DNA from: a virus
Strand: one strand, 5' to 3'
Length of the DNA stretch: 59,440 bases
Virus record (IMG/VR): IMGVR_UViG_3300031788_000016
Coordinates: 1 to 59,440 of that record
Under the pieces are notes generated by a model. That model worked only from the letters and a program-made list of their open reading frames with translations. It ran no database searches and was not told where the DNA came from. Both the position numbers and the translations under genes were made by a program. Numbering within the stretch: position 1 is the first letter of the stretch; every line of letters starts with the position of its first letter. Positions 4,033 through 45,824 of this stretch are shown piece after piece.

Positions 4033-4953
4033 TCAGGCCGCGAGGCTGATACGGGCCACGGCCGGGGCGTTGGCGATGGCGAGCCCGATGTACTCCCAGC
4101 TGCAGAAGCTGAGGACCTGGAACTCCTTCTTCACGCCGAACTTCGTGCTCTCCAGCACCAGGAAGCGGCCGAGGGCCTTCTCGTCGGCGAACCCGTAGAT
4201 CATCGGGTTGCCGGCGCCGTCCGTCAGCAGATCGACCTTGATCGACACGATCAGCTTGCGCCCGGCCCAGTTGAAGTACTTGTAGCCGTCGATCGTGACT
4301 TCCTTCAGGAGATCGCTGCCGAGGTCCTGGAAGTCCATGCCGAGGATGTCGTTGAAGGTCGTCACGCCCATGAGCAGCGTGGTGCACTTCAGGAACTTGC
4401 TCTCGATCAGGTTGATCAGAGTCACCACGGCGGCCTTGGTGAGCTTCTGACCGGTGCCCGAGATCACGAGGATGTTGCCCGCAGCGGCGGCAGCGGCCTC
4501 GACGTACTTGAGGAAGATCGTGTCTTCGACACGTTCCATCTCGCGCACGATGTTCTCTTCGACGATCTTGACGACCGGCTGCATGCTGGCCAGCAGTTCG
4601 ATCTCGCGCTTCTGGATGAGGTTCGAGGAGATCTCCTGGATGGGGATCTCGTAGGCCGGCGTGTTGATGTACGTGCCGTCCGGGTCGGCGCGGAAGTTGA
4701 TGACCGTCGCGGGACCGACGTCGACTTCCTTTTCGTCCACGAACACCAGCTGTTCGTGCAGGGACGAGCGCTTCAGGTCATACCGGGTGACCGTGCGGGG
4801 CGTCAGGATCTGACGCGAGAACGCGCGCTCACGCAGCTTCACCGCGATGAAGAGACCGGCGGCTTCCGCCATCTTCATGGTGTTGGGGCCACCGACTTCG
4901 CGGATGAAGGTGGTGTTGTCGTTCTTGAACAGATCGAGGTACTGGGTATCCAT
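4033..4953 (-). CDS. Major capsid protein, HK97-fold type (putative)
   Basis: 306 aa. The layout matches compact HK97-type capsid proteins: an N-terminal arm, a beta-rich E-loop segment with 'EKEVDVGPATVINFRADP', a long spine-like helix (IQKREIELLASMQPVVKIVE), Ala-rich helices, a P-domain/A-domain region (TLLMGVTTFNDILGMDF), and a C-terminal strand (VLSFCSWEYIGLAIANAPAV). Context supports this strongly. It lies 4 bases after a decoration-like gene, is flanked by a terminator as expected for a highly expressed gene, and is in the same block as a prohead protease and terminase. No other candidate of this kind is seen in the block. Confidence 0.8.
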   Translation of the reverse strand: MDTQYLDLFKNDNTTFIREVGGPNTMKMAEAAGLFIAVKLRERAFSRQILTPRTVTRYDLKRSSLHEQLVFVDEKEVDVGPATVINFRADPDGTYINTPAYEIPIQEISSNLIQKREIELLASMQPVVKIVEENIVREMERVEDTIFLKYVEAAAAAAGNILVISGTGQKLTKAAVVTLINLIESKFLKCTTLLMGVTTFNDILGMDFQDLGSDLLKEVTIDGYKYFNWAGRKLIVSIKVDLLTDGAGNPMIYGFADEKALGRFLVLESTKFGVKKEFQVLSFCSWEYIGLAIANAPAVARISLAA

Positions 4954-8068: not shown

Positions 8069-9484
8069 TCAGCGGCTCAACAGTTTGGTTGAGATGCCGG
8101 CATAGGCCAGATGATACATCGCGGATTTCACGCGATCGTGATCGACTGGATTTCCCGTCAGTTTGCGGAGCGCAGGGTTGAGCATCGCAGACTTGTAGAA
8201 ATGGTCGATCGTCAAAGAGCCGAGCAGTCGGCGGTAGTACGCGTAGAGGTCGGAGACGAGTTCGGGTCCAGCGATCTTGGTGGGTTCCCACCCCGAGGCC
8301 GGACCGCGCACCGCGAATCCGCTGCGTGCTGCGATCTTCTGCTCCAGCGCATGATAGAGAGGCAAGGAGAAATTGTCCAGGGAAAGCGCCGTGGGGGCAT
8401 TCACTTCGGCGTCCTTCTCGATCGCCGCAGGATTCTCCATCGTGGTCGCTTCGAGGACGAGATGCGCGAATTCGATCGGCGAGAGCACGGCGCCGGAAGC
8501 CGCCAGCGTCGAGACGATCCGGTTCAGATCGTTGCCGGTGGTATCGAGCATCGTCTTCATGTCTTCGGCCGTGAAGTCGGAAGGCGCCTCTGCGCTCTCG
8601 GCCGCGCAGCCCGGATCCGAGTCGGGATGGATCTGCCCGATCTGCATGCCGCCGTCTGCCGGCGGCATCTGCTTCTCCATTTCGGCCATCTTTGATCTCC
8701 AGTTGCGGTCCATGGAATCGTAGACGTCCTTCTCACGCCGCGGTGCGGTCATGTAGCCTCCAAATGCAGCGACCTTTCCGAGCGACAGCGCGATCGGATC
8801 GGCAGGGATGGTGACGCGGCTGATGTCGAAGAAGCGAGGCTTGATATTGTCCGCGCAGACGAGACGCCCGTCCGGCAGGATCTGATTCATCATCGTGCGC
8901 AGATGCACGCAGCGCTGATGGATGAACTGGTTGCGGTTCTGGCAGATGCGGCACTGCTCGTGGTCGATGCGGCAGCCCATCGAGACGGGGATGATGCCGC
9001 CGTTGTCGAGGATCTGCGCCGAGTCGCGGTCACGATCGACGAAGATGCGGATGATCAGTTCCACCCGATGCATCGGAGCATTCCACGCGGCCACCGGCAC
9101 GTTGCCGAAGCGCGGCGAGAAGTCCGTGTTGTCGTGGTGGTGGAAATAGTTCGCGGTCTCGAACGTCTGATAGCGCGGGATGCAGATGCCGGCGAACGGA
9201 TCGGGATTCTTCTCCGCTTCAGACGGGTCTTGAATGCCGCACAGTTCGGCTTCGCGGAAGACGTCGCCGTTGAGATTGCTGCCGAAGAAGTCGCCGTCCG
9301 ACATCGCGATCGTGTGCATGTACCGATAGCGCGGATCGGGCTGCACCTGATTGATGAATGCCTGGATCGATGGCGGGATGAACTCTTCCGGCTGGAAGAG
9401 CGCCGTCTTGATGATCGTGGAGGAGCCGCGCCCATCGAAGAGCGAGGCCACCTTCATCTCAGTATTGAGCCACTTCTCGATCAT
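8069..9484 (-). CDS. Prohead maturation protease, S78/U35-like, with an inserted Cys cluster
   Basis: 471 aa. Residues 55-172 follow the HK97-type prohead protease pattern: GDFFGSNLNGDVF, then NYFHHHDNTDFSPRFGNV (His about 115-117), then a beta strand VELIIRIFVDRD and GIIPVSMGCRI with the likely nucleophile Ser168. The family uses a His/Ser catalytic core to cleave scaffold and capsid. After the Ser there is CRICQ...HQRCVH (Cys178, Cys181, Cys192 plus His), unusual for the family and able to bind zinc. The C-terminal 200 residues are helical and may be a self-scaffold. Start ATG 9484 lies 3 bases after the 123-aa gene. Confidence 0.75.
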   Translation of the reverse strand: MIEKWLNTEMKVASLFDGRGSSTIIKTALFQPEEFIPPSIQAFINQVQPDPRYRYMHTIAMSDGDFFGSNLNGDVFREAELCGIQDPSEAEKNPDPFAGICIPRYQTFETANYFHHHDNTDFSPRFGNVPVAAWNAPMHRVELIIRIFVDRDRDSAQILDNGGIIPVSMGCRIDHEQCRICQNRNQFIHQRCVHLRTMMNQILPDGRLVCADNIKPRFFDISRVTIPADPIALSLGKVAAFGGYMTAPRREKDVYDSMDRNWRSKMAEMEKQMPPADGGMQIGQIHPDSDPGCAAESAEAPSDFTAEDMKTMLDTTGNDLNRIVSTLAASGAVLSPIEFAHLVLEATTMENPAAIEKDAEVNAPTALSLDNFSLPLYHALEQKIAARSGFAVRGPASGWEPTKIAGPELVSDLYAYYRRLLGSLTIDHFYKSAMLNPALRKLTGNPVDHDRVKSAMYHLAYAGISTKLLSR

Positions 9485-14281: not shown

Positions 14282-15970
14282 TCACTGATAGAACGAATTG
14301 GGCACGCCCCAGCCGTCGTCGGCCATTTGTTCCAGAGATTGCTGCCCGGCGCTGACGGACTGGCTTCCGGCGTGCGCGCCGAAGTTGCCCTGGATCAGCA
14401 GTTCGCCGGCCAGCATGGCATAGGTCAGTGCGTGGGTCGCATCGTCCGGTTTGATGTGGACGTACTGCATCGTGTTCGTCTTCTCGTTGAACTCGATTGA
14501 GACCGCGAGGAGGTGGTCGAACAGGGTGGCATTGTCTTCGGCGCGCGGCAGCCGGCAGTTCGCCTTGCGCAGCATTTCGAAGGTGTCGGTCAGCACCGGC
14601 GTGCGGGCCAGATGCCACTTGCGGGTCTTCGGTTCCCACTTTGCGCGCTGGGTTTTGCCGCCGCGGCCGATCATTCCGGTGTGCCACATCTGGGCCACAC
14701 GCTGCTCGCCGAGTTCGTTGATCAGCTGCAGGTTCTGCACCTGACCAGCGCCGTAGTCAGCGCCGATCAGATAGATGTCGTGCTGTTGGGCGATGCGCAG
14801 GATCTCTTTGATCTGGTACAGCGAATCGGTTTCAGCGCCCTTGAAGCAGTGGTGGTAGTAGACATCGAATTGATGCGGGAAGGAGTTCCAGGCACCGATG
14901 ACGACGTAGGTGTAGGAGTCGATTCCATGGAAGGCCCAGTCGACGCCCATGACCAGCGGAGGAATGCCTCTCGCACCCTTGGCCGGGATCTCGTTCTTGC
15001 GGTCAGCGACGCAGCAGTGCATCAGCTGATTGAGCGTGACCGGCGGAATGCCGGAGTCGAAAGGTAAACCGAAGACTTCGTTGTAGAGCAGCGCCGTGCT
15101 CATCTCGCGCACGTCTTTGAGCAGATCGCGCCACTTGAACGGATCGTCCATGATCGGCTTGCAGATCAGCTGCGAGACGCGATACGACTCCATGGTGACG
15201 GAGGCGTCTTTGCCCTTCTCGAAATCCAGTTCGCGGCGCTTGACCCACTGTCCGAGATTGGTGTTGATCGAGCGACCGCAGAACTCGCAGATGACGCCGT
15301 GGTTGCCGATGTTCTTCTCGGCCCAGGTCATGTTCCACTTGCCGCAGCCCATCTGCTGACACTTCACCGCCCACTCGGCCGCGGTGCTGCGACCGCGCAT
15401 GCCTTCCATGTGGTTGCCGAGAGACTTCGGCGTCCCGCAATACCAGAAGCTGGGTTCCAAGACGCGGAACGCCATGCGCTTCACGACTTGGATGACGTCC
15501 GACATGATGTCCTGGACTTCATCGAACTTCAGTCGGCCAGCCGACCGGCCGCGCAGGCGATCGGCCGTGCGCTGTGCGAAACCACACGAGATCATCGCGC
15601 CATTGCTGAGGATTTTCTGATGCACCTGATTGGTGATGTTGCCGGAGAAGAATCCATCGTGGACGAGAGGGCTGTCTTCGAGGAAATCTTTCAAACGCTG
15701 AGTCGAGAAGACTTTCGCCTGATCTTCTAGGGGCGACACGTACAGCTGCGCGCTCTTCGGATTCAGGACAGCGTGCGCAACCATCAGCGAGGCCAGCGTG
15801 GTCGACTTCGAGACCTGACGTGCGGTGAACAGCCCGACCTCGCGGGAGTTCGTATTGTAGATGGACTTCAGATACGGGTAGTCACTGAGATCGAAAGGCT
15901 TGTTGTTGAGCGAGAGGATCTCTTGACAGAAATCGTACGGCTCCAGCTTGAGCTTCGGTTCTTCGATCAC
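14282..15970 (-). CDS. terL: Terminase large subunit (packaging ATPase/nuclease)
   Basis: 562 aa from GTG 15970, which overlaps the upstream TGA (GTGA). ATPase: Walker A-like ARQVSKST at 50-57 (Ser where the usual P-loop Gly stands) and Walker B LKFDE at 147-151. Residues 204-231 carry CxxxxC...CxxC (C204, C209, C228, C231), a zinc knuckle. Nuclease RNase H-like fold: VMGVDWAFHG (D344), IGADYGAG (D405) and DDATHAL (D509/510), the acidic triad of terminase nucleases. The protein cuts concatemeric DNA and drives it into the prohead through the portal. It lies in the minus-strand head block; the 313-aa gene just upstream may be its partner. Confidence 0.93.
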   Translation of the reverse strand: MIEEPKLKLEPYDFCQEILSLNNKPFDLSDYPYLKSIYNTNSREVGLFTARQVSKSTTLASLMVAHAVLNPKSAQLYVSPLEDQAKVFSTQRLKDFLEDSPLVHDGFFSGNITNQVHQKILSNGAMISCGFAQRTADRLRGRSAGRLKFDEVQDIMSDVIQVVKRMAFRVLEPSFWYCGTPKSLGNHMEGMRGRSTAAEWAVKCQQMGCGKWNMTWAEKNIGNHGVICEFCGRSINTNLGQWVKRRELDFEKGKDASVTMESYRVSQLICKPIMDDPFKWRDLLKDVREMSTALLYNEVFGLPFDSGIPPVTLNQLMHCCVADRKNEIPAKGARGIPPLVMGVDWAFHGIDSYTYVVIGAWNSFPHQFDVYYHHCFKGAETDSLYQIKEILRIAQQHDIYLIGADYGAGQVQNLQLINELGEQRVAQMWHTGMIGRGGKTQRAKWEPKTRKWHLARTPVLTDTFEMLRKANCRLPRAEDNATLFDHLLAVSIEFNEKTNTMQYVHIKPDDATHALTYAMLAGELLIQGNFGAHAGSQSVSAGQQSLEQMADDGWGVPNSFYQ

Positions 15971-16915: not shown

Positions 16916-18748
16916 TCAGAATCCCGCGGCCCCGGTATTCGACTGCGCGGGCTGGCCTTCGAGGCCGGTGCTGCGCAGGCGCTCCGCGACGCGGCTGAGG
17001 GCCTTCATCGCGACCACGGTTGCCGATTCATCGCCGGGGAAGCCCAGGCGGATGGCCAGGAGCAGGCGGCAGAGACGGCCGACCACCGTTTCGAACTGGT
17101 CGGCGAGCCCGACGAATTCAGCGACGTTGTCTTCGGTCAGGAAGCCGGCGCCCAGCACCGCATCCACGCCCGAGGGATCGCCGATGGCGGCGGCCAGCTT
17201 CACGGCCTTGTCGAGAGGGAGGACGATGTCGCGCATGACGTCGACGAAGAAGGTCGGTAGATCCTTCAGACGGCTGGCCTGCTTGGTGATCTGCTCGATG
17301 GTATCTTCCATGCCGGCGCGGAAGCGCACGGAGCCGTCGACTTCAGCCTTCTTCATGATCTCTTCGGGATTCGAGATGTAGCTGCCGAGCACTTCGGCCA
17401 TCTTCTCGCGATCGACGAAGGACGAGAACGGCTCACCGGAGACGATCAGGCTCCACTGCCCAGCCGAATTCACCAGCTGATCCGGCACGAGGCGCGCCAT
17501 CTGCGAGGCGACCTTGTCGGGCGTCATGGGCAGGAGGTCCTGGTGCGTGCCGAGAGCGATGACCTGGGTCGTCATCGGGAGAAGCCAGACGTCGCGGGCG
17601 TCGTCGTGGATCGCGGTCTTGAGCCGACCGTCGAGCGCGATGCGATGCTCGGCGCCGAAGTCATCGGTCATGGTCAGTTCGACGTAGTTCTGGTCTTCAT
17701 GCACCGCGACGCGGGCGAGCTTGCAGGGCGCGGTGAAGATGCCATCGGTGCAGAACATCAGCGTCTGCCCGTTGCGCAGTGCCGGCGTCGCGGTCGCGAC
17801 CTTCATCGCGGCGACGGCGGCATCCTCTTCCTTCTCGGCCATCTTGAAGCCGGTGGCCTCGATCGGCGCGCGGGCATAGGAGCCGTCGTCGAAGATGAGC
17901 CAGCGGCCCTTCTCCTTGCGGAAGAGATCGACGGCTTCCACCGAGACAGCGGTCTTGGTGGTGTTGCCATCGACGAAGATCTCGGCGGCGAGGATGCTGT
18001 CGGTCTTGAAGGCCTCGATGTTGGCCGGCAGTTCGAGGAACATGCCCTTCGGCAGTTCGATGCTGGCGTGCAGGATCTGCGCCGCGGCGGTCTTCTTCGG
18101 CTCGGGCGAGGCCAACCATTCATCGACCACGCCACCGGTCTGGTTGTGGGCGAAGCCCATGAGCACGTCGCGGTTCTGCAGGAGGGAAGCGAGCTTCTCC
18201 TTCTGCTTCTCGGTGGTGCCGAGAACGCTGGCCAGCACGGTGCGCCCGCGGTAGGGGAGACGCAGCGAGCTTCCGTCTTCGGAGTAGCCCGACTGGATCT
18301 GCTGCGAAGACGGCACCGGGTCGCCGATCGACGAGACGTCGAGCGCGTGCCGGAAGGTGTCTTCGTTGAGCGGCATCACCTCGTTGTTGTCCATCGACGT
18401 GGACTGCGACTTGGAGTCGGCGCTCGGGTCCTTGTTCTGCACGATCAGGATGTCGAGCGGCGAGAGTTCCCAGTTCCGGATGACGATCGGGATCGAGAGG
18501 TGGCTGGCACCGACGATCGAGATGTAGCCGGTCGCCATGCCCGAGGCGTCGTCCTTGCGCGTGAAATTGATCAGCGCGCGGTCGGACGGGATATAGGGGT
18601 GCTCGCGGATGAGCAGCTGCATGATCTCGTCGTCCCAGTAGGCCGGCGGCGAAGTCAGACGGACTCCGGCGGTCTTGAGGCCCGGGATGACCGAGGCGAA
18701 TTCAGCCGGGTCGAGACGCGGGGCCGCTGGTTCCAGGGTGGACGGCAT
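16916..18748 (-). CDS. Unknown large structural-block protein
   Basis: 610 aa, mixed alpha/beta, preceded by AGGACA and ATG 18748. It contains beta-rich middle segments (GQTLMFCTDGIFTAPCKLAR, NYVELTMTDDFGAEHRIALD) and a helical C-terminus. Size and placement between the spike and terminase would permit a portal or another large virion protein. No portal, sheath or fibre signature is visible to me. The reading frame is secure (long, codon-biased, tight spacing to both neighbours). Confidence 0.75.
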   Translation of the reverse strand: MPSTLEPAAPRLDPAEFASVIPGLKTAGVRLTSPPAYWDDEIMQLLIREHPYIPSDRALINFTRKDDASGMATGYISIVGASHLSIPIVIRNWELSPLDILIVQNKDPSADSKSQSTSMDNNEVMPLNEDTFRHALDVSSIGDPVPSSQQIQSGYSEDGSSLRLPYRGRTVLASVLGTTEKQKEKLASLLQNRDVLMGFAHNQTGGVVDEWLASPEPKKTAAAQILHASIELPKGMFLELPANIEAFKTDSILAAEIFVDGNTTKTAVSVEAVDLFRKEKGRWLIFDDGSYARAPIEATGFKMAEKEEDAAVAAMKVATATPALRNGQTLMFCTDGIFTAPCKLARVAVHEDQNYVELTMTDDFGAEHRIALDGRLKTAIHDDARDVWLLPMTTQVIALGTHQDLLPMTPDKVASQMARLVPDQLVNSAGQWSLIVSGEPFSSFVDREKMAEVLGSYISNPEEIMKKAEVDGSVRFRAGMEDTIEQITKQASRLKDLPTFFVDVMRDIVLPLDKAVKLAAAIGDPSGVDAVLGAGFLTEDNVAEFVGLADQFETVVGRLCRLLLAIRLGFPGDESATVVAMKALSRVAERLRSTGLEGQPAQSNTGAAGF

Positions 18749-21745: not shown

Positions 21746-21760
21746 ACGTCGAACGCTGGA

Positions 21761-31893: not shown

Positions 31894-31905
31894 GCAGACC
31901 GGACA

Positions 31906-31937: not shown

Positions 31938-31951
31938 ACTTCCAGCGTGAA

Positions 31952-33915: not shown

Positions 33916-36900
33916 CTAGGCCACTTCCGAGGGCATGGGCCGCTCGAAGGCGTCATCGACGATCTGATTCTGGCGGAACTTCGCACCGTAGGCGAGGCCC
34001 GCGATCGGGCTGGCATTACCCGTGAGATCGCTCGACCCGGACTGAGACGCGACGTCGCGCACGCTGTCATCGAGACGTTGGAAATTCAACCGCGAGAGGA
34101 GGTCTTTCGATTCGAGCGGCTTGTAGCCGAGACCGAGCAGCACCGGCTTCGCGGTGATCTTCGGATTGCGCATGTGGCGCAGATTGAATTCGTTCTCGTG
34201 CATCACGTCGCCGATGGCGAGATCCGGCTCGCCGCCATCGTCGGTGATCTCGACGGTGCGCATCATGCCGGCGGCGATCACTTCGATCACCGGCTTGCGC
34301 ACGACTGCGCCGGCGTCTGCGTAGCTCTTGCGGATCTGATTGACGACGTACTTCTGCGCCGCCAGCGCGCCTTGCGAGGCCGCGATCTCGCGCGGATCGA
34401 AATTGCCCGTCGAGATGGGCTGGCCGATGTCCACCATCTGATCGTGCTTCACGATGACATCACGGCCCTGCAGGATGTGGTGCTCGACCGGTTCCTGGTC
34501 CGGCGCCTGGATGTAGACGAAGCTGCCGCCCTGCGGCGCCGCGCGGATGTCGGTGACGCGGCCGGTGACCGTGGCGAGGCCGCCCTGGTTCTTGATGGTG
34601 CTCGGCACCGCGAGCAGTTCGTGCAGGCGTTGGAAGCCGGCGCTCAGGCTGTCGCCAGAGCCCACCGTGCCGCCGGAGTGGAAGCTCTTCAGCATCAGCT
34701 GAGTGGATCGCTCAGACACGGTCTGACCGTAGTTGTAGCCGATGTTGGATCCAAGCGGATGCAGCTGTCCGTTCGCATCACGTCCCGCGCACATCTGACA
34801 GGGAACATGAACGGCGGCACAGGTGAGCGGGGAGCGGACGCGCACAATTTCCATTCCGGCGTCGCGCATCTTTGCCAGGATCTCAGGCGTGACGGGGTCA
34901 TTCCGCTTCGCAATTCCAGGCACATCTTCAAGAAGATGGCGATCAAGAAGATCGACATCTGGTTCAGAGAGTTGTTCGTCGAGGCCGTTGTGGGTTCCAC
35001 AGTCGCGCTCCATGATGCGGATATCGCCCATGTTACCGGCGATCTCCTTGGCGAGGAAGCCCGGCATGGCGACGGAGAGGCCCTTGGCCACCATTCCCTT
35101 ACGCGCGCCGGGCGTGACCATGATGTAGTCGCTCGGGCGCATGCCCATGGCATAGCTGGAGCGGATGACGCCGGGCACGATCTGGTCGTGCACGTCGGTC
35201 ACCATGACCGGCGAGGCGAGCATCTGCTTCAGCTGATCGAGCTTCTTGTTCGAGCCGCTCTCGATGAAGCTGTGGTAGCCGAGGTCGATCTTGCCGAGGT
35301 GGTCTTTCACCTCGTCGATCAGCTGGCTGTCGTACTTCTTCGAGAGGCCGTAGAGCGCCTCCTGATCCTTCGGATCGGTATTGGCGACGTCTTTGTCCAG
35401 TTGCTTGAGCAGCCGGTCGATCTTGGTGCGGTCCACCACGAGTTCTTTGATCGAGGCGGTGATGCCGCCCGCCGCAGCCGCGGCGCTGAACCCCGCGGAA
35501 GCGATTTTCCGGGAAAGATTGTTGTAGTCGGCGGGCGACTTCTCGGCGATCGTCGTCAAAATCTTTTCGAGCTTCTTGCCGTCGATGGGAGCCGAGACGC
35601 CCATCATGAAACGAGCCGGCACGATCTCTTCGAAGATCAGCCAACCGATCGCCACCTGAGTGGGCTGTCCCTTGATCTTGACGAGGCTGCCCATCTGCAG
35701 GCTCGAATCTTTGTTGCTGCGGTAGGCGTCGATCGCATCGTCCGCAGAATCGAAGGTCTTGCCAGTCGGCGTGCCGGGTTTGGTCAGCGCGAAGATGCCC
35801 GAGATGACGTCTTTCGAAACGCCGAACGCGAGGCTCTTGTCTTTGTCATAGAGCAGATTGTTCGTCGGCAGCAGCTTCACCGCTTCGCGCTTGGCGTCAT
35901 CGGTGATCGGCACGAACACCGACATGGTGTCGCCATCGTAGTCGGCGTTGAACGGGCCGACGACGAGCGGGCTGATGCGGACTTCCTTGCCCTCGCTGAT
36001 GCGCGGCTTCGCCGCGAGGATGCTCCAGCGGTGCAGCGACGGCGCGCGGTTGTAGAGGACGAGGCGGTCCTTCATCTCGGCATCGAGATTCTGGCGCGCG
36101 GCCATGGTGCGCTTCTCGACGTGATCCATCGCCTCGGCAGGCTTCCAGCCGCCCTTCGACATGCGGCGGACGACGATGGGCTTGAACAGCTTCCACGCCA
36201 TGTCTTCCGGGATGGCGATCTCGTCAGGGCCGAGAGAAGCGTCGGGCTCGATGGTGGATCGACCGCTGTAGTCGTTGCGGTGGGCGACGACCATGCGCTG
36301 GAACAGGCCCTCTTTGTTGAGCTTGCCCTTGATGACGTCGATGAAGCCCGACGCGTCTTCGCGATCGTCGCGATGCGTCAGCGGATTGTTCACGCCGATG
36401 AGCGCACCGAACGAGGTGTAGAGGTTGTTGCGCGCCGCCTTCATGTGCTCTTCGGGCAGATGCGCGGCCTTGGCGTCCTTCAGCGCGTCATTGGTCAGGA
36501 CGAGGTCGCGGTAGAGGAGATTGCTGTCGGCGATGCGCAGCGACTTGTCGCCCATCTCGATGATGGGGCGGTACTTCGGCGGCACGACTGGCACTACATT
36601 CGTCATGTAGGCGTCGAAAGGCGACAATTTTGACAGCTTGAGGCCACGCAGGTACTTCGTGGCCCGGCTGTATTTGTTCGCGTCGCTGCCCACGGCGGTG
36701 TGGAGCTTCGCTTTGAAATCGTCGAGCTTCTTGTCCACGTCGAAGTCGAGGATCTTCTTGAAGCCGGCCTCGCCCGTCAGCGTGTGCGCGTTCGGCGTCT
36801 CGACGAACTTCCCGGTGCGCGGGTCGTAATGCCGCGTGTGCATGATGAGGCCGTAATAGTCGGCCGTCTTCATCCCCGTCATGTCGCGGATGGTCTTCTC

Positions 36901-39900
36901 GTAGAGCGGATGCGGGATTCTTTCCGCCAACTCGATGTGCGTCCACTTGTCGCCCTTGAGCCCGCCGGTCTTGGCGACGTCGAACAGCCCGCCCTTCTCT
37001 TCGGCGAGGTCTTTCGAGCGGATCAAGCGCGCGCCGGTGATCTCGCCATTCGAGAGAGAACGCACTGTCTTCTCGGTCATCGGCAGGTAGTGGAGGATGT
37101 TGCCCTTCTGCTGCGTGTCGACGCCGGCCGCATTCAGGAAGGCGCGGAACTTCTCGAAGACGAAGGGCACCTTGGGTGGTGGCGGCGTTTCGCCAGCTTG
37201 GTATGCACGCCAGAAATCCTCATTTCGAGTTCCGCGAATACCCGCTGCCTCTCCGAGGATGGCATGGGCATCGTGTCCGAGCAGCGCGTACGTCGTGAGG
37301 TGGTCATAGCTCTGTCCTCCCTTGCCGCCGCCGCGAGTCGGCGTCTCGTCGTAGGTGTAGCCGTCGCGCTCGCGCGCCGAGAACTTCTTCCGCACGGGAT
37401 GGTCGAGTTTGACCATGTAGTTGTAGCCGACGCCGACCGGCTTTTCGAGATACTTTCCGGTCTGCGGATCGAACAGGCGCACGGTGTGGCTGAGCCCCGC
37501 CGCGTCCAAGGCCTTGTCGATCTCGCGGGCGTGATCCTTGCCGTCGAAATTGGCGAACGTGTAGGGCTTTCCGGTTTCGTGCACGAGCAGCCCGGCTGCC
37601 TGCTCGATGGTCTGCGACGGGTTGATGCGGTTGACGATTCCGTGGGTGTTGAGGATGACCTCGATCGGCTTGCCGTCATCGGTGCGCGGCATCTCGGCGT
37701 CGGGGATGATCGCGGCCACAGTGCCCTTGGCGGCCGAAGACATCGACAGCTTGTCGCCGACGCCCATGGGCTCTTCAGTCTGCAGATGCACGTCGATGCG
37801 CGTGCTGCTGCGCAGGACACGGTAGACGGTGGCGGGGAAGTCCTCATTCCAAACCAGCGAGGCGTCCTTGTAGGGGCGCTGCAGGCTCTTGTGGATCTGG
37901 CCCAGGTTCTGTGACGAGCGGTCCTGCTTGTCGAACTCGTTCTTGCGCAGCGCCGCGACCAGGATGTCGCCTGGATCGACGCGCGATCCCTCTTTGACGA
38001 CGCCGGTGTCGTCCAGCTTGGCGTAGTTCGCGCCGGTGTATTTGGTCGGGAACTGCGCGAAGGCCAGCTTCTTGTCGATCACCATGCCGGGCTGGAGTTC
38101 CAGTTCCTCGCGATGGATATGCATCGACGAGAACTTCTCCTTGGCGCTCTCGCTGATGGAGATGGCGTCTTCGAAGTTGAGGCCGTTCTTCCACGGCATG
38201 AAGGCGGTGCGCACGTTGACGCCCAGAGCCAGCTTGCCGTCGCGAGAGTAGTTGCTGTCAGCGAGGAGATCGCCCTTCTTCACCATCTGGCCGACTTTGA
38301 CGACGGGGATGTGATCCAGAGCCACCTTCGCCTGCATCGGATAGTGGTCGAAGAGTTCGTGGCGCACGCCGGCCACCACGATCGCCTGCGGCGACACGCT
38401 CTCGACCTTTCCATCGACCATCGAACGGATCACGAAGGCGCGGGCCAATTCCTCATACACGCTGTTGCCGGCGCCATCGACCATGGAGGCGAGCGGCAGT
38501 TCGCGGTGCACCAGCGGGAGCGCCTGGGTCAGATGCTTGCCGGCCATCATGGCGCGGTTGGCGTGCGTGTGGTCGAGGAAGAGAGCGGCATTCGAGGTGT
38601 TGTCGAACATCGCGCGGCCAGACGGGATGATGTATTCGACCTTCTTCGGGTCGACCATCACGATGTGGCCCTTCTCGTTTGCGCGAACCAGCGTGTCGAT
38701 GGGCTTGCCCTTGTCGTCCCAGTATTCCGGGTAGCCGATGACCGCATCCGAGGCCTGCACCGTGCTCAGCGAGACGGGCTTGTCGTTCTGGTTGACGTGG
38801 CCGCCGTCGACCTTCAAGAAGAAGGAGCGGATCTCGTTGCCGTGCTTCTGTGCGTTGACCGCGAGATGGGTCGTGACGCCCACCGCCATGCCTTCAGGGC
38901 TGTGCACGGGGTCGATGAAGTTGGCAGAGCCGGGGCGGAACAGGCGCGCGTCCTGCGTGATGGCGCGCTCGGTGCCGATGCCGCCCTCGCCCATCACGGT
39001 GATCTTCGAGTTCTCGGAGAGGATCGAGAGCGGGTTCGCTGCTTCAGCGGTGGTCGCCAAGCCGCCTTCGACGTCGTTCGTCCCGCCGAAGAAGGAAACG
39101 GTGGCCGAGTTCAGCCAGCCGTTTCCGAACGCTTTCACCAGTGTGTTCCCTGGTTTCGCGATACGCAGGAGCAGTTTACGCTTGAGGAGGCGCTGGAGAC
39201 GCCGAATGCGCTCGGGGATGAAATCATCGACATGGTAGATGTTCTTGAATTCCACCGAGTCACGGTCGTCCGGCGGTGCCGTGCCACGAGAGACTTCCAG
39301 GATGCGTCGCGATGCTTCGAGGAAGACTCGCGGCGTGATGTAATTGAACGGAGCGCCCAGAGTTTTCTGGGTGGTGTATGCATCGAGCTTGCGGCCCTCA
39401 AGCCACTGCCGGATCGCCACGATCTGTCCCGCCTCATCGACATCATCGAACTCCTTGCTCTTCTCGATCACACCCGCGCGAATGAGATCGCGGTTCTGTT
39501 TGTGCTCCACAACGGAGTGGAACATCTTCGAGACGTCAGAGGCGCGCGCCTTGACGCGGTTCTTGTCCAGGATCTCGTGCGCACCCTTGTCGTTCCCCCA
39601 CACCGCGAGGATGTCGGAGTCGGATACACCAAGAGCGCGCATGATGGCATACCAGCTGACGTTGGACTTGTAGACCTCGATCTTGAAGATCGACGTCTTG
39701 GGCTCCATATACACCTTCAGCTGGCCACTGGGCGTATTGATCCAAGACTCGAACTCGCCGTTGGTCTTCTCCCGGGTGTAGACGCCGGGCTTCATCCGCA
39801 GTTGGTAGGGCTCGAAGTAATCGCTGCCCTTGACCATCATCGTTCCGAGCGCTCCCATGAGAGGCAAGCTGCCGAGATTGAATCCCGGCAGCTTTTGCGC

Positions 39901-40167
39901 GATCTTCCCGTCACGACTCAACGTGATGTCGGCGATGATGCGCCCGCCCACCGTTCTACCAGACTGGCGCGCAGCTTGCCACGCGTTCAACCCATGCGGA
40001 TTGAACTGAGTGTCGTCGACGTGGATACCAGTCGCTTCAATACGGATGGAGCCCTCCTCGATAGGGAAGATGCTCGCGACCGCGTCTATGACATTCTTCT
40101 TCAGCGCATCGTTGACCTGTTCATACCGAAACGAGCGCGCCGGTAGCTGTGCAAATGGGTCGGCCAT
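33916..40167 (-). CDS. Single-chain multisubunit-type RNA polymerase (beta-beta' fusion)
   Basis: 2083 aa. The beta half (1 to about 1045) contains GFNLGSLPLMGALGTM, MPWKNGLNFEDAISISE (NFED 664-667), a KLSMSSAAKGTVAAIIPDAE segment and GVGYNYMVKLDHPVRKKF (about 911-928). The beta' half starts near KGGLFDV (1059) and has WTHIELAERIPHPLY, clamp-helix-like sequence at about 1140-1185, NDYSGRS, LYNRAPSLHR, the catalytic NADYDGD (N1407, D1409, D1411, D1413), a trigger-loop region TPGARKGM (1690) and a four-Cys zinc site (C1723, C1783, C1790, C1793). The C-terminal beta' segment is also present. The N-terminal beta' zinc site is absent. It ends in TAG. Position in the tail operon and no alpha or omega in the window are notable. 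Confidence 0.96.
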   Translation of the reverse strand: MADPFAQLPARSFRYEQVNDALKKNVIDAVASIFPIEEGSIRIEATGIHVDDTQFNPHGLNAWQAARQSGRTVGGRIIADITLSRDGKIAQKLPGFNLGSLPLMGALGTMMVKGSDYFEPYQLRMKPGVYTREKTNGEFESWINTPSGQLKVYMEPKTSIFKIEVYKSNVSWYAIMRALGVSDSDILAVWGNDKGAHEILDKNRVKARASDVSKMFHSVVEHKQNRDLIRAGVIEKSKEFDDVDEAGQIVAIRQWLEGRKLDAYTTQKTLGAPFNYITPRVFLEASRRILEVSRGTAPPDDRDSVEFKNIYHVDDFIPERIRRLQRLLKRKLLLRIAKPGNTLVKAFGNGWLNSATVSFFGGTNDVEGGLATTAEAANPLSILSENSKITVMGEGGIGTERAITQDARLFRPGSANFIDPVHSPEGMAVGVTTHLAVNAQKHGNEIRSFFLKVDGGHVNQNDKPVSLSTVQASDAVIGYPEYWDDKGKPIDTLVRANEKGHIVMVDPKKVEYIIPSGRAMFDNTSNAALFLDHTHANRAMMAGKHLTQALPLVHRELPLASMVDGAGNSVYEELARAFVIRSMVDGKVESVSPQAIVVAGVRHELFDHYPMQAKVALDHIPVVKVGQMVKKGDLLADSNYSRDGKLALGVNVRTAFMPWKNGLNFEDAISISESAKEKFSSMHIHREELELQPGMVIDKKLAFAQFPTKYTGANYAKLDDTGVVKEGSRVDPGDILVAALRKNEFDKQDRSSQNLGQIHKSLQRPYKDASLVWNEDFPATVYRVLRSSTRIDVHLQTEEPMGVGDKLSMSSAAKGTVAAIIPDAEMPRTDDGKPIEVILNTHGIVNRINPSQTIEQAAGLLVHETGKPYTFANFDGKDHAREIDKALDAAGLSHTVRLFDPQTGKYLEKPVGVGYNYMVKLDHPVRKKFSARERDGYTYDETPTRGGGKGGQSYDHLTTYALLGHDAHAILGEAAGIRGTRNEDFWRAYQAGETPPPPKVPFVFEKFRAFLNAAGVDTQQKGNILHYLPMTEKTVRSLSNGEITGARLIRSKDLAEEKGGLFDVAKTGGLKGDKWTHIELAERIPHPLYEKTIRDMTGMKTADYYGLIMHTRHYDPRTGKFVETPNAHTLTGEAGFKKILDFDVDKKLDDFKAKLHTAVGSDANKYSRATKYLRGLKLSKLSPFDAYMTNVVPVVPPKYRPIIEMGDKSLRIADSNLLYRDLVLTNDALKDAKAAHLPEEHMKAARNNLYTSFGALIGVNNPLTHRDDREDASGFIDVIKGKLNKEGLFQRMVVAHRNDYSGRSTIEPDASLGPDEIAIPEDMAWKLFKPIVVRRMSKGGWKPAEAMDHVEKRTMAARQNLDAEMKDRLVLYNRAPSLHRWSILAAKPRISEGKEVRISPLVVGPFNADYDGDTMSVFVPITDDAKREAVKLLPTNNLLYDKDKSLAFGVSKDVISGIFALTKPGTPTGKTFDSADDAIDAYRSNKDSSLQMGSLVKIKGQPTQVAIGWLIFEEIVPARFMMGVSAPIDGKKLEKILTTIAEKSPADYNNLSRKIASAGFSAAAAAGGITASIKELVVDRTKIDRLLKQLDKDVANTDPKDQEALYGLSKKYDSQLIDEVKDHLGKIDLGYHSFIESGSNKKLDQLKQMLASPVMVTDVHDQIVPGVIRSSYAMGMRPSDYIMVTPGARKGMVAKGLSVAMPGFLAKEIAGNMGDIRIMERDCGTHNGLDEQLSEPDVDLLDRHLLEDVPGIAKRNDPVTPEILAKMRDAGMEIVRVRSPLTCAAVHVPCQMCAGRDANGQLHPLGSNIGYNYGQTVSERSTQLMLKSFHSGGTVGSGDSLSAGFQRLHELLAVPSTIKNQGGLATVTGRVTDIRAAPQGGSFVYIQAPDQEPVEHHILQGRDVIVKHDQMVDIGQPISTGNFDPREIAASQGALAAQKYVVNQIRKSYADAGAVVRKPVIEVIAAGMMRTVEITDDGGEPDLAIGDVMHENEFNLRHMRNPKITAKPVLLGLGYKPLESKDLLSRLNFQRLDDSVRDVASQSGSSDLTGNASPIAGLAYGAKFRQNQIVDDAFERPMPSEVA

Positions 40168-40371: not shown

Positions 40372-42836
40372 CAGTTCCCTTTCAGATTCACGGTGGGCGT
40401 CGTGACGCCGAGCGTGGTCGGTGGCGTCGGGGCGGAATCGCTCCCGTCGTAGTCGTAATACTTCTGCGAGACCGCCTGGAAGTTGCCGCGGTTGATGTAG
40501 GCCGTTTGGTTGGCCTGCGTCTGCGTGGCCGTCACGCTGCCGGGCGCATTCGTGGGCGTGGTGCAGAGCGTGCTGAAGTCGAGATTCAGAAGCTGGTTGA
40601 TCTGATCGATGACGTTCAGCAGGCGCTGAAGACGATCGTTGTCTATGCACTTCTTACCGACCGCGGGGATGCCATCGAACGTGCCCATCGAGATGGTCTG
40701 CGAATCGGCGATGTCGTAGCTGTCCTGCACCTGATTCAACACGTTGTTCGCGATCTTTGAGATCACCGGGTTGTCGCAGTTGAGTACCAAGCACTGCACC
40801 GCTTTGATCAGCGTGTCGAGAGCGGACGAGCTTTGGCCATTCGTTCCGAGCAGGCGACTGAGATCTGCTGTCTTGAGCGTCTCGTACAGATCCGAGAACT
40901 GGGTGGCGAGGCCGGCGATGTTCTCTTCGATGGCCACGGCATCCGAAGCCACGGACAGCGCGACTTCCAGCTGCCCGATTCCAAGGCCGAGGTGGCTCTT
41001 CATGCAGTAGAGGAACGTCTCGCGCTGCTTGATGGCGATATTCAGCGCAGTGGCCGCGGCCTGCAGATCGGTCGTGCTGTTGATGGCATTCGAGGGATCG
41101 TCGATCGAGCGGCGATTCGAATGGTTCTGGCACGCCAGGAGGAAGTTGTCGATGAGCGTGATCACCACTGCGCCGCCCTGCGGGTCGCCACAGGGCGTGA
41201 CGTCGAAGAGATCGATGATGGCCTGCAGTTCGGCAGCGAAGCCCTGCTGCACGTCGAGGATGTCCTGGATGATGTTGAAGATCTTCGGAATGGTGTTCAT
41301 CAGCGGGCACAGCACCGCCAGGATCGAATAGGCGCCGACCATCGACGAGATGTATGTCCATACGTCGGTCTTCGGCTGTGCCGGGATGGCGTTTGCGGCC
41401 GCAAGCCGCTGGCGCGCATAGTTGTTCACGTTCACATAGAACTGCTGCAACTGATCCTGCGAGGCCGTCGTGGTCACCAGGGCCTCGCCCTGCTGCTTGA
41501 TGTAGGTCGCGATGTCCTTGTTCGCCGCAGCCTGCGCCGTGATCTGATTCAGCGAGCCTGCAGGATCACCGCTCTCCAGCTGAATGCGCAGCGCAGAGAT
41601 CTGCATTTGGATGACGTTGATGATCAACGAGAGCATCTCGCCGAGCGGCAGCTGCTCCAACGACTTCAGCAGCGCGACGGCGTTGATGATGTTGTTGTAA
41701 AGCGTGAGGATGTACTGGTCTTCGATCTTCAGCTGGTTGCGTAGGAACTGGAGTTCCGCGCAGGCCAGCCGGAAATTGATGCCAGGGAGGACCTGGGCGA
41801 GGCTGGAGTTGAGGAAGGCTTGGAGATCGGTGACCTTGATGCCATTGATGCCGATGAACGACTCCAGCGAATCGGTGGCGCCGGTGTAGATCGTGTCCTT
41901 GGCATGGCAGACGTGCGCGGTGGCGTCTTGCAGCGTCGCGCGATCGAAGACGCCCTGCGTGCGCAGCTTCCGTGACACGATCCGGAGATCCCGGTCGGCG
42001 ATGCAGAGATCGTTCAGCAGCGACGTATTGGCCAGCGAGACGTCGATCTGCGCCGGGATGAAGCTGGCTTGCTGGAAGCACGTCGAGACTGCGCCACGGA
42101 TCTGCTTGAGATACGTCAGTTCGGTGTCGATCGCCGGAATGCCGTGCTTGAAGGCAAAGAGATAGATCGCCCGCATGTTCCCTTCGGCGTTCGGGCTAAA
42201 GAAAAGAGATTTGCCGACCAGCATGACCTGATCGACGTATTGGGTGATGAGTGATTGGTCAGCCGGGTTTGAATCCGGCGAGAGCGGCTGGATCGTGGCG
42301 TCGTAAAGCGTGCCGAGAGATTGCTGCAGCGTGGCCTGCTGCAACTTGAAGATCGCGGTCAGCGGATCCGACAGGGCATCCGTCACCGAATTTATCATCG
42401 TGTCGAGCACGCTGCTGCCCGATGTCGGCCCGCCGGTCGCACCGTTATTCGGGATCAGGATGTCTTTGAAGAGATCGTAGGTATCGGTGATCGGCTTCGT
42501 CATCGCCGCCGAGAGCTTTGTCGAAGACGCGCTCTGGCCGCTGTAGAAGCTGGTGATCGAGAGCGCGCTCTGCGCCAGTCCGGTGAGGCAGCCGAGAAAT
42601 CCTTCAGCAGGGACAAGTCCGTCCGCGGTCTGCACTCCGTCCAGCTGATTGTTGACGGCGGTGACGCCGGCCAACACCTCCGTTGTGCCGCCAACACCGG
42701 TGGCCATGCCCTGCATGATTCCGAGTTCCGTCGCGGACGGCGCCGGCGTATATGCCGGGCCTGGAAGGCTTTCCGGCGCGACAACGCCGGGGTACCCGAC
42801 ATTGCTCCCCGGTGGGACGTAGGGAGCAGCGGTCAT
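40371..42836 (-). CDS. Unknown large helical protein co-expressed with the sigma factor
   Basis: 821 aa from ATG 42836, overlapping the sigma-factor TGA by four bases (ATGA), so translation is coupled. Pro/Gly-rich first 35 residues, then largely helical with scattered Cys (about 14 in total). It has long hydrophobic-polar repeats, e.g. LYNNIINAVALLKSLEQLPL and FNIIQDILDVQQGFAAELQA, and a polar C-terminal 60 residues. No enzyme motif is seen. Its place between sigma and polymerase genes within the tail operon suggests a virion or injected protein. The family is not recognised. Confidence 0.75.
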   Translation of the reverse strand: MTAAPYVPPGSNVGYPGVVAPESLPGPAYTPAPSATELGIMQGMATGVGGTTEVLAGVTAVNNQLDGVQTADGLVPAEGFLGCLTGLAQSALSITSFYSGQSASSTKLSAAMTKPITDTYDLFKDILIPNNGATGGPTSGSSVLDTMINSVTDALSDPLTAIFKLQQATLQQSLGTLYDATIQPLSPDSNPADQSLITQYVDQVMLVGKSLFFSPNAEGNMRAIYLFAFKHGIPAIDTELTYLKQIRGAVSTCFQQASFIPAQIDVSLANTSLLNDLCIADRDLRIVSRKLRTQGVFDRATLQDATAHVCHAKDTIYTGATDSLESFIGINGIKVTDLQAFLNSSLAQVLPGINFRLACAELQFLRNQLKIEDQYILTLYNNIINAVALLKSLEQLPLGEMLSLIINVIQMQISALRIQLESGDPAGSLNQITAQAAANKDIATYIKQQGEALVTTTASQDQLQQFYVNVNNYARQRLAAANAIPAQPKTDVWTYISSMVGAYSILAVLCPLMNTIPKIFNIIQDILDVQQGFAAELQAIIDLFDVTPCGDPQGGAVVITLIDNFLLACQNHSNRRSIDDPSNAINSTTDLQAAATALNIAIKQRETFLYCMKSHLGLGIGQLEVALSVASDAVAIEENIAGLATQFSDLYETLKTADLSRLLGTNGQSSSALDTLIKAVQCLVLNCDNPVISKIANNVLNQVQDSYDIADSQTISMGTFDGIPAVGKKCIDNDRLQRLLNVIDQINQLLNLDFSTLCTTPTNAPGSVTATQTQANQTAYINRGNFQAVSQKYYDYDGSDSAPTPPTTLGVTTPTVNLKGN

Positions 42837-43576
42837 TTGCCGCCCATATATTGATGCAGCTTCTTCGCGATGGACGTGCGCAGCTGTGAGACGCGGCCGG
42901 CGGAGAGCGCCAGCTTCTTCGCGATTGCATTGTTCGTCATCTTCGTGCGCCCATGAGCGCCGAGGCTATAGTCGAAGACGTTCTGCTCGTCGGGCGTCAA
43001 CGAGTAGTAGGCCATCATGGCGCGTTCGTAGTCAGCATCATGTTCGAACTGGGTAAGGTCGTCGACTCCTCCTCCGAATTCGAGCAGATCCTTTCGCATG
43101 AGACCCTGCAGATCAACGACATGAGAGACGGGCACACCGATATGGTCCGCGATCTCGTGCGTCGTGGGCTCACGTCCGAATTTGATATTGAGGTCAGCCA
43201 CCGCTTCACGGTAGGGTCCGATCTCCTGAATTCTGTGTTCGGGAATGCGGGCCGCGTTCTGGTACTGGCTGACATAGCGGTACAGCTTGTTCTTCACCGC
43301 GGTGGTGACGTAGGTGCCCATGTTCGACGTGCGGGACGGATCGTAATCCTTCAGCGCCTCGACAGCGAAGACGCGGCCCTGCAGTTCGAGCGTGGGCATG
43401 GGCAGCGGTGCGCCGCGAAACGAATTGATCGCCGTGCCGATGGCGCCGCTGAAGTTGTCGAGCAGCGGAACCAGAGCCTCGTCCTTCTCATCCCCAGTCG
43501 CGTTCTTCCATTGCGAATGCAAACGCTGATCCAGGGATCCAGGCGAGGTTCCGGGCAGCGGCATGGGGTCAAACAC
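42833..43576 (-). CDS. Phage-encoded sigma-70 family factor
   Basis: 247 aa if started at GTG 43576 (AAGG 7 nt upstream) or 243 aa from ATG 43564. Region 2 spans about 35-107 with AVEALKDYDPSRTSNMGTYV followed by TTAVKNKLYRYVSQ, matching the RYDPSRG-x-F-x-TYA...IR pattern. Region 3 (110-160) contains LNIKFGREPTTHEIADHIGV. Region 4 (190-245) has LTPDEQNVFDYSLG and an HTH NAIAKKLALSAGRVSQLRTS. There is no region 1.1. It would direct a core polymerase, most simply the phage's own beta-beta' enzyme, to phage promoters. It lies between two baseplate or unknown genes in the tail operon. Confidence 0.9.
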   Translation of the reverse strand: MFDPMPLPGTSPGSLDQRLHSQWKNATGDEKDEALVPLLDNFSGAIGTAINSFRGAPLPMPTLELQGRVFAVEALKDYDPSRTSNMGTYVTTAVKNKLYRYVSQYQNAARIPEHRIQEIGPYREAVADLNIKFGREPTTHEIADHIGVPVSHVVDLQGLMRKDLLEFGGGVDDLTQFEHDADYERAMMAYYSLTPDEQNVFDYSLGAHGRTKMTNNAIAKKLALSAGRVSQLRTSIAKKLHQYMGGK

Positions 43577-43592: not shown

Positions 43593-45824
43593 TCAACCGT
43601 TGGTGATGAGGGCCTTGATGCGAGCGGAGATCTGCAGTGCAGCATTCTGCCGGAAGGTGGAGATGGTGCCAGCCTTGCCATCGGGCGCGACAGCGGTGTA
43701 GGCACCATATTGGTTGGCAGCCGGCGTTCCGGTATTGCCCACGAATTGCAGTTGCACCGGCGCGCCGAACAGCGGATTGCCCACCGACGTGCTCTTGACC
43801 AGATTGTCGGGCAGCAGGTTCGCGGCGACTGAATCAGGATCGGTGGTGTTCGTGATCGCCGAGTTAAAACCCTGCAGACCATCGAGCCCGTGGAAGTTGG
43901 CGTATTCAGTGATCGTGACGCCCGGCCGGAACTGATAGCGCAGCATGTTGGTCTGGTAGTCGCCACCGGGCATCGCCATGAGATCGGCGAGCGTCATGTC
44001 CGACGATTCGCTCTGCGGGAAGAGGCCGCTCGGATCATAGGTGGGCGAATTGAGCAGCACCTGAGCCAGCACATCGAGATTCACCTGTTGCGGTGCGAAC
44101 TCCGCTGCCGGCGATTGAGTCGTCTGGATCAAGGTCTGGGGCACCATAGCCGCGTGCGCACCAAGCCCGAAGCCAGGGAATGCCACCGAGGGGAAGTTCG
44201 TGCCGAAGAGCTTGGAATAGGTCGCGTCGATGTTGCCGGCCCAGAAGGCAGAGTTCACCCACGACGGCATCGGCGAATGGCGCTGCTTGCCAGGGACGAC
44301 ATATGACTCGCGGATATTTCCGATCAAGACGGTCGTCGACGCGCGCCCAGTGGCCTGGAGCGTGTGCGTGAGGCTGGCGACGATGCCATAGAACGGCCCG
44401 GTGGGATCTTCCACCAAGCACGGGAAGCCGGCGACGAGATATGGCAGGAAGGCGCAGTTCACCTGGGTGCTTCGCACCGCAGAGCGCGCGAGATCGAAGT
44501 GATAGCGGACACACGCCATCATGTAGTTGATCACGCTGTTCTGCTGCACCTGGGAATAGCCAGAGGTAGATGGCGAGGTGCCGGGCTTCGTGGCCGCGAG
44601 CTTGGCCAGCGTGTTCTCGATCGAGATGTTCCCGGGCGACGCCGGGATGATGCCCTTGTAGAGTTCTTCCGGCGACGGATAGCCATGCGTGACGATGGTG
44701 CTCGCGCCGTTCTTCGACGTGTCCATGTTGGCTACGGTCGGATCGTAATTCAGCTGCGCCTGGAACTCCGAGTTCTCGACCGACGTCGCCAAGACGAACG
44801 CCGGGATTTGAAGGCCGCCGGCCAGGGCCGACCCCGGCTGCGCGTAGACGCGCGTCGGCTCGCTGAGATAGCTGCGCGTCATGTCGAAGTCGGTGACTTG
44901 GCTGCGGAAGATGACGTTGCAAGCCGGCGGCACGACGTTGAGAAGATTGGGAACGAAGAGCAATTCGGCGAGGACAGATCCGCTGTCCAGCTGCGAAGAC
45001 TGCTGTGAGCTGGAATCGCCGAGCCCGAGGCTGGCCTGGACGTCATCGATCGCCGTCGCGACCTGCAAGAACTGCTGTGCGTTGGACGAGATCAGCGGCG
45101 GATTCAGGATCGGCGTGTGATGATACAGGATCATCGCCTCGATCTGTTGGAGCACAGAACTCAGTTGCTGATCGGTGGCCATGTTCAGCAATTGATTCTT
45201 CAGCAGGCTGTCGGTCAGTTCTCGCGACAGCAGCTTCTGGATCTCCAAATCGTCGATCGTGAAGACCTTTTTGTTGATGTACCGGGCGAAGTGGTAGAAC
45301 GAGTCCACCGCGCTCTGCTGCATGAACGCGTCGATGATGTTCAAGAGAATGAAGTTGATGCTGGCGTCGGATGCTTGGGATTGGCTGACCGCGGTATCGA
45401 TGAATCCAGCGAGAGTGGTGCCCAACAGATTGCTCTGCGCGCCGCACGACACGTTCAATCCGTTCACGACGAGAGACGACAGCCCTCCTGGATTGGTGGC
45501 GCCAAGAACCGAAGCGATCTTCACGCGATCCCACATCGAATGCAGGCCGCGGAAGATCAGCGTGCGCCGGCGTTTGCTGTCGGCCGCTTTTGATTTGGAA
45601 TAGCCGGTGTATTCGCCTTCGACCATGAAGCGCCACACGTTGGTGACCGGGTCGGAGTAGAAGATGGCGCAGTGCGATCGCGCCGGCAGCAGATCCCATT
45701 CGGCCACTGCAGGCACATCGACAGAGAAGGTGACGAGGCCACCGTCCTGCGCGGTGACAGAGACGGAAGCCGGGTCGAAGCGAACGCCGTTGATGTAGGC
45801 AACAACGGCAATGTTCTTGGCCAT
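43593..45824 (-). CDS. Baseplate/tail hub-like protein (putative)
   Basis: 743 aa. The N-terminus reads like the first domain of tail-hub proteins (gpD/gp27 type): a short strand AVVAYINGVRFDPASVSVTA, then FSVDVPAVAEWDLLPARSHC, VEGEYTGYSKSKAADSKRRR and LIFRGLHSMWDRVK. The rest is helical, Gln/Ser/Asn-rich and unassigned. It is followed 16 bases later by the sigma gene. The assignment is by pattern of the N-terminus and by operon position after the tape measure and tail genes. Confidence 0.5.
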   Translation of the reverse strand: MAKNIAVVAYINGVRFDPASVSVTAQDGGLVTFSVDVPAVAEWDLLPARSHCAIFYSDPVTNVWRFMVEGEYTGYSKSKAADSKRRRTLIFRGLHSMWDRVKIASVLGATNPGGLSSLVVNGLNVSCGAQSNLLGTTLAGFIDTAVSQSQASDASINFILLNIIDAFMQQSAVDSFYHFARYINKKVFTIDDLEIQKLLSRELTDSLLKNQLLNMATDQQLSSVLQQIEAMILYHHTPILNPPLISSNAQQFLQVATAIDDVQASLGLGDSSSQQSSQLDSGSVLAELLFVPNLLNVVPPACNVIFRSQVTDFDMTRSYLSEPTRVYAQPGSALAGGLQIPAFVLATSVENSEFQAQLNYDPTVANMDTSKNGASTIVTHGYPSPEELYKGIIPASPGNISIENTLAKLAATKPGTSPSTSGYSQVQQNSVINYMMACVRYHFDLARSAVRSTQVNCAFLPYLVAGFPCLVEDPTGPFYGIVASLTHTLQATGRASTTVLIGNIRESYVVPGKQRHSPMPSWVNSAFWAGNIDATYSKLFGTNFPSVAFPGFGLGAHAAMVPQTLIQTTQSPAAEFAPQQVNLDVLAQVLLNSPTYDPSGLFPQSESSDMTLADLMAMPGGDYQTNMLRYQFRPGVTITEYANFHGLDGLQGFNSAITNTTDPDSVAANLLPDNLVKSTSVGNPLFGAPVQLQFVGNTGTPAANQYGAYTAVAPDGKAGTISTFRQNAALQISARIKALITNG

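Follow-up and report, generated by a model that had tools for sequence, protein, structure and literature searches.

A complete bacterial-type RNA polymerase core encoded as a single chain by an uncultured phage and its relatives

The 59,440-base IMG/VR virus record IMGVR_UViG_3300031788_000016 is a linear fragment, and the whole of it is analysed here as the window. Its minus strand carries one long open reading frame (ORF), which starts with an ATG at 40167, runs without interruption over 2083 codons and has a stop that ends at 33916. This frame encodes an RNA polymerase (RNAP) core in which the beta subunit is followed, in the same chain, by beta' (Table 1). Pfam domains occur in the order Rpb2_2, Rpb2_3, Rpb2_6, Rpb1_1, Rpb1_2 and Rpb1_5 (best E 1e-51). 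The NCBIfam RpoB and RpoC models match the protein at 1e-79 to 1e-124, far under their curated cut-offs, and the models of bacterial beta/beta' fusions match at 1e-130 and 1e-113, again under the cut-offs. The 60 best PDB sequence matches listed are all cellular beta or beta' chains, and the third-position G+C of the gene resembles that of the adjoining genes. The original prediction, made from the letters of the window, was of a complete bacterial-type RNAP core in one uninterrupted beta-beta' frame of 2083 residues. Its coordinates, length and domain order were verified here and all of the motifs that it quoted were found, namely NFED (E666, D667), YNYMVKLDH, YSGRS, NADYDGD, ARKGM and the four-cysteine site. 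Homology, catalytic residues, predicted folds and dozens of relatives together support the conclusion that the gene encodes a complete bacterial-type, two-barrel RNAP core in a single polypeptide.

Conservation was counted over 63 non-redundant one-chain proteins, and both the catalytic Asp triad and the active-site lysines of the beta barrel are present in every one of them; the trigger-loop His is found in 62. An AlphaFold model of residues 1-1030 (predicted local distance difference test (pLDDT) 87.0, predicted template modelling score (pTM) 0.83) has as its best PDB match the Thermus RpoB chain 4oin_C (E 2e-71, template modelling (TM) score 0.75), while a model of residues 900-2083 (pLDDT 88.4, pTM 0.86) is closest to an RpoC chain (E 7e-63, TM 0.82). 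The Asp triad aligns with that of the bacterial enzyme, and so do the bridge helix and the trigger loop, so that the failure to align which the original prediction had named as a refutation did not occur. The clamp coiled-coil, which is the main sigma-binding element in bacteria, and the flap tip, which is the dock of sigma region 4, are both recognisable. Where beta passes into beta', two AlphaFold runs each give a two-strand hairpin (approximately residues 1016-1021 and 1024-1029), and the surrounding stretch (residues 1015-1035) is identical in length in 62 of the 63 proteins. A hairpin of constant length at this point implies that the two halves are fused without a flexible linker. The N-terminal zinc site of beta' had been reported as lacking, and the alignment agrees: the segment TGGLKG-DKWTHIEL closes up where bacteria and the separate-gene phage Carin-5 carry a zinc domain. 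This domain is absent from all 63 one-chain proteins, none of which has a cysteine at the site. A 60-residue ORF with a zinc-ribbon-like CxxC...CxC motif lies immediately upstream (window 40189-40371, minus strand), between the RNAP gene and that of an 821-residue protein. It was considered as a substitute for the lost domain and set aside, as nothing that convincingly corresponds to it emerged when the relatives were scanned.

The window protein is far from alone. A first IMG/VR scan with it returned loci L004 (66%; one chain of 2102 residues), L003 (53%) and L002 (37%; 2119 residues), and a profile scan gave at least 401 relatives, of which the best 80 were kept. Among the loci collected from these scans, to which all family counts refer, 67 relatives have the whole protein in a single open frame, 2018-2304 residues long from stop to stop. 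The one-chain form is therefore common in uncultured phages, and the original prediction stands as to its reality but overstated its singularity, since there is a whole family and, in isolates, a two-gene sister form. That split form is a minority (L007, L086, L090, L091, L092, Salmonella phage Arash and Vibrio phage D69) in which the first chain stops soon after the catalytic Asp motif and, where it was seen (Arash, D69, L086), the remainder of beta' is a second gene. No intact one-chain form appears among the INPHARED annotated matches listed for isolates, the best of which are the two-gene proteins of Arash and the Vibrio D phages. No description of this one-chain phage RNAP family was found in the open-access literature searched, although one paper speaks, without giving names, of 'derivatives with fused DPBB domains' (double-psi beta-barrel) of multisubunit RNAPs (PMC10770324).

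Several members depart from the simple open frame. In L003 the RNAP is intact save for a single TAG (12410-12412) at the codon of the invariant catalytic lysine, which may be a sequencing error, a mutation or a case of suppression. L062 (10202-15979) and L050 (12194-12196) contain in-frame TGA codons, several or some of them at conserved RNAP tryptophan positions, which suggests that these phages read TGA as Trp. The RNAP of L013 appears to be frameshifted, and in a human-gut 'phage' record (H10) it is spread over two ORFs. Inteins interrupt the catalytic DFDGD motif of L006 (9962-15409) and L085 (9917-18946); both contain LAGLIDADG domains, that of L006 has intein-splicing domains as well, and L085 appears to hold a second insert in the trigger loop.

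Trees with Shimodaira-Hasegawa-like approximate likelihood ratio support were built by quick searches from 59 rows for the beta half and 57 for the beta' half, with 27 bacteria and no archaea included. They contain long branches, and neither a root nor an age is claimed. In both, a long branch separates the 27 bacteria from a single group that holds all of the one-chain and split phage proteins. When 13 separate-gene phages are added, the one-chain and split proteins group together again, with full support. The split proteins nest among the one-chain sequences, yet an approximately unbiased (AU) test does not reject monophyly of the one-chain form (p 0.226), so the two-gene form may or may not derive from the one-chain form.

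The original prediction, although right about the RNAP, overlooked a sigma-70-family gene in the same block of genes. Its ORF as listed extends to 43966 owing to overlap with a neighbouring gene. Regions 3 and 4 (PF04539, PF04545) score above the Pfam cut-offs and region 2 is weak; the protein exceeds the cut-off of the sigma-70 superfamily model TIGR02937 (46.2 versus 42.9 bits), is RpoS-like in a PDB search, and is homologous to the Arash virion protein gp10 (31%, E 1e-18; profile E 4e-66). The gene order 788-residue protein, 743-residue protein, sigma, 821-residue protein, RNAP is common to the window, L004 and L003. Thirty larger records, including the isolate genomes of Arash and D69, were screened for the remaining components of a holoenzyme. 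A match to sigma region 4 (E 0.001) was found in 15 of them, seven over the cut-off, and one to region 2 in nine. Around the RNAP block, sigma-70-type promoters showed no excess over shuffled sequences. On the 312-kb phage contig of L206 (record G029), different ORFs give 13 weak matches of the sigma region 4 type. None of the 30 records matched RpoA (cellular controls positive 13/14) or omega (14/14), which extends to relatives the earlier remark that neither is seen in the window, and every record has exactly one Rpb2_6 gene. Absence of both subunits is consistent with a core that would work without them.

The neighbourhood was originally described as phage tail genes, which holds approximately: around the RNAP lie large genes of the late block, and several of them have homologues among the Arash virion proteins. 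Arash homologues exist for the capsid, protease-like and terminase proteins of the window as well as for several of its large late proteins, and most of these homologues were found in Arash particles. The terminase gene lies a median of 6.5 kb downstream of the RNAP in 52 relative loci. The 610-residue protein, also found near the RNAP in relatives, has no match in PHROG or PDB. The proximity of these two families places the RNAP in a packaging and structural block. Elsewhere in the window are a tRNA gene with the amber-reading anticodon CUA (55149-55224, plus strand; Rfam 60.9 bits) and three copies of a 60-nucleotide element (21146-21205, 21713-21772 and 31905-31964), which consists of a terminator-like hairpin followed by the inverted repeat CTTCTTTTTA...TAAAAAGAAG. 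The 27 main ORFs end in TGA (22), TAA (four) or TAG (one). A transfer-messenger RNA (tmRNA) gene is predicted on the contig of L002 (23901-24291, minus strand).

Table 1. Features of the RNAP locus and other genes of the window, with residues numbered along the RNAP chain.
Feature	Position	Strand	Basis or remark
Single-chain RNAP core, beta then beta', 2083 residues	33916..40167	-	ORF, Pfam, AlphaFold
Beta part, residues ~1-1022 (Rpb2_2, Rpb2_3, Rpb2_6)	37102..40167	-	Pfam, AlphaFold
Beta' part, residues ~1023-2083 (Rpb1_1, Rpb1_2, Rpb1_5)	33919..37101	-	Pfam, AlphaFold
Flap-tip helix, residues 750-758	37894..37920	-	AlphaFold model, alignment
Active-site lysines of the beta barrel, K806 (VGDK) and K814	37726..37752	-	Invariant, 63/63
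Beta/beta' junction, predicted tight beta-hairpin, residues 1016-1029	37081..37122	-	AlphaFold, conservation
Site of the missing beta' N-terminal zinc-binding domain, TGGLKGDKWTHIEL, residues 1067-1080	36928..36969	-	Alignment
Clamp coiled-coil, residues 1214-1257	36397..36528	-	Two helices in AlphaFold model; alignment
Catalytic Asp triad, D1409, D1411, D1413	35929..35943	-	Invariant, 63/63
Bridge helix, residues 1678-1713	35029..35136	-	AlphaFold model, alignment
Second zinc site, Cys 1723, 1783, 1790, 1793	34789..35001	-	Each kept in 59-60/63
Trigger-helix region, residues 1809-1831, including trigger-loop His1830	34675..34743	-	AlphaFold model, alignment
Sigma-70 family factor, ~247 residues, probable GTG start	42833..43576	-	Pfam, TIGR02937, PDB search
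821-residue protein between sigma and RNAP; same place in L003 and L004	40371..42836	-	Locus comparison
743-residue protein; one region like Arash gp8 (cell wall hydrolase, virion protein)	43593..45824	-	Homology
788-residue protein, conserved in L003 and L004	45843..48209	-	Homology
Terminase large subunit	14282..15970	-	Homology; downstream of RNAP within flank in most relatives
610-residue protein, function unassigned	16916..18748	-	Median 2 kb downstream of RNAP, 68 loci
Major capsid protein, homologous to Arash gp226	4033..4953	-
Head-protease-like gene	8069..9484

The closest counterparts among isolates are Arash, with gp206 and gp216, and the Vibrio phages D69, D148 and D181. They fall in the same clade as the window protein, join beta to the N-terminal half of beta' and lack the beta' zinc domain; Arash also shares the sigma homologue (gp10) and the capsid, protease-like and terminase genes. 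Unlike the window, they encode the last third of beta' separately (606 residues in Arash), and identity is 29-31%. The Arash study reports virion mass spectrometry in which gp206 (beta plus the N-terminal part of beta') tops all proteins with 3516 spectra, compared with 1333 for the capsid, 1210 for gp216 (the C-terminal part of beta') and 467 for the sigma factor gp010 (PMC10585845). Early transcription and carry-over from infected cells are both offered there as explanations, and in the passages of the paper considered here we found no remark on the beta-beta' fusion in gp206. The one-chain core and its sigma suggest that the published virion proteome of Arash already holds a packaged holoenzyme of the family to which the one-chain RNAP belongs.

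The relationship to other phage RNAPs is more distant. By their published description, the mReC phages encode a beta and a beta' subunit and have a capsid of the Gp23 type (PF07068; Weinheimer and Aylward, 2020; PMC7481178). Like theirs, the window RNAP has recognisable beta and beta' parts with NADxDGD and falls apart from bacteria in trees, and by Pfam/NCBIfam equivalents it shows the COG0085/COG0086-like trait with this motif; unlike the mReC core as described, it has beta and beta' fused in one chain. PF07068 was found in none of 37 one-chain or split records, against 7 of 18 separate-gene records taken as a control. Those belong to a separate-gene group in IMG/VR (L178-L210 and others), in which beta' (~900 residues) precedes beta (~1000 residues) and the zinc domain is usually kept; a scan with a sole phage beta query had come back empty, and an alignment query recovered them. 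PF07068 capsids occur in all six separate-gene contigs above 190 kb and in the isolate Carin-5, and this group fits the published mReC phages better than the one-chain family does. The capsid test thus speaks against equating the one-chain family with mReC, from which the description also sets it apart. Most probably the family is distinct from the mReC core as described, even if the filters of that study could have let a fused protein through.

Enzymes of the phiKZ and AR9 type resemble the window RNAP in being phage-encoded, bacterial-type and without alpha or omega, and virion packaging is seen there (PMC7598289, PMC7824862). They differ in that phiKZ-type phages have two enzymes, one virion and one non-virion, built from at least four genes and with no sigma (PMC7598289, PMC7824862), whereas the window encodes a single enzyme, in one chain, along with a sigma-70-family factor. 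Both barrels also share a polypeptide in crAss-like phi14:2 gp66, in P23-45 gp64/gp96 and in YonO. Some single-subunit two-barrel phage RNAPs are virion enzymes, and those of crAss type and P23-45 belong to a divergent second clade of two-barrel RNAPs (PMC10770324). The crAss and YonO enzymes are too divergent for beta/beta' models (PMC7481178); the window RNAP, by contrast, has its domains in the bacterial order and matches such models with E values between 1e-51 and 1e-130. Finally, the bacterial rpoBC fusions of Helicobacter and Wolbachia (NF007172, NF011417) likewise place beta before beta' in one chain, but their models are 2890 and 2839 residues long, and the phage chain is some 750 residues shorter and lacks the N-terminal zinc domain. 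A standard bacterial RNAP differs in having separate beta and beta' chains, as well as the RpoA and omega that the 30 records lack.

Based upon these observations, the following model can be proposed. The C-terminus of beta would pass through the tight hairpin directly into beta', and a single chain would thereby keep both catalytic barrels together with no need of an alpha-dimer scaffold. The phage sigma-70-family factor would dock on two retained elements, the clamp coiled-coil and the flap tip, and direct the core to phage promoters. Core and sigma would be produced late and packaged in the virion, from which they would enter with the DNA and transcribe early genes, either beside the host enzyme or without it. 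By homology to Arash, a packaged core and sigma that start early transcription is the most economical reading. What we infer is that the enzyme is active, pairs with the sigma, is packaged (from the Arash homology) and does without host alpha and omega, and with fair confidence we regard a one-chain core that is packaged with a phage sigma and injected with the DNA for early transcription as the best explanation.

The most serious competitor, which we nevertheless consider unlikely, is a non-virion RNAP that is made after infection for middle or late genes, as is the phiKZ non-virion enzyme, with the virion copies being mere passengers. In large phages, sigma factors usually act on later classes of genes, and carry-over is raised by the Arash authors themselves; yet the RNAP chain outcounts the capsid in Arash particles in the spectral counts cited above, the gene lies in a late structural and packaging block, and there is a single such RNAP per genome. 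Less probable still is a hybrid enzyme in which the core assembles with host alpha, and omega. It is compatible with how bacterial-like beta and beta' are, but the fusion removes the need for alpha to join them, phiKZ-type phage RNAPs function without alpha (PMC7598289), and the phage clade is far from the bacterial enzymes sampled.

A chain of this length might also be a polyprotein that is cut after translation to yield an ordinary two-subunit enzyme, given that the window has a head-protease-like gene and that phage proteases cleave virion proteins. The linker-free junction, constant in length and confidently predicted as a hairpin, makes such processing improbable, as does the position of the break in two-gene relatives, which lies elsewhere, inside beta'. 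A host rpoBC fused in error during assembly was the artefact that the original prediction itself had raised, and it is considered here together with recent capture of a host gene. Bacterial beta/beta' fusions do exist (NF007172, NF011417), but the window protein scores only 436 of the 5372 bits required by the first model (8%) and 378 of 4632 by the second, and these scores together with the trees rule out a recent bacterial fusion. Contamination and misassembly are ruled out by the terminase and capsid genes on the same contig, the 67 relatives, the separate phage clade of both halves and a third-position G+C like that of the neighbours, and we give this explanation practically no weight.

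Several points weigh against the model of a packaged core and sigma. Carry-over from infected cells is conceded as possible by the Arash authors (PMC10585845). The conserved clamp and flap, which appear in predicted models, are evidence of architecture and not of sigma binding. A recognisable sigma is frequent, but since its domains were detected in no more than about half of the 30 records, pairing with sigma cannot be universal in recognisable form. Close to the active site, the beta barrel of the window departs from that of most relatives, with SSAAKG in place of RHGNKG. Lastly, the window is a 59-kb linear fragment, and absences within it weigh little.

In the cellular bacterial enzyme, an alpha dimer assembles the two large subunits. 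A one-chain core close to that enzyme and accompanied by a factor of the sigma-70 type would amount to a minimal holoenzyme made by nature; if the model is true, no simpler sigma-dependent RNAP of bacterial type is known. Such a core could be cloned as a single gene for use as an orthogonal transcription tool, and would provide a means to ask what roles alpha, omega and the beta' zinc domain play. For the history of phage transcription, the family represents a second phage RNAP lineage beside mReC. We would give roughly even chances to the broader view that it is a widespread and deep phage lineage whose virion-packaged one-chain core and sigma initiate at phage promoters without alpha or omega.

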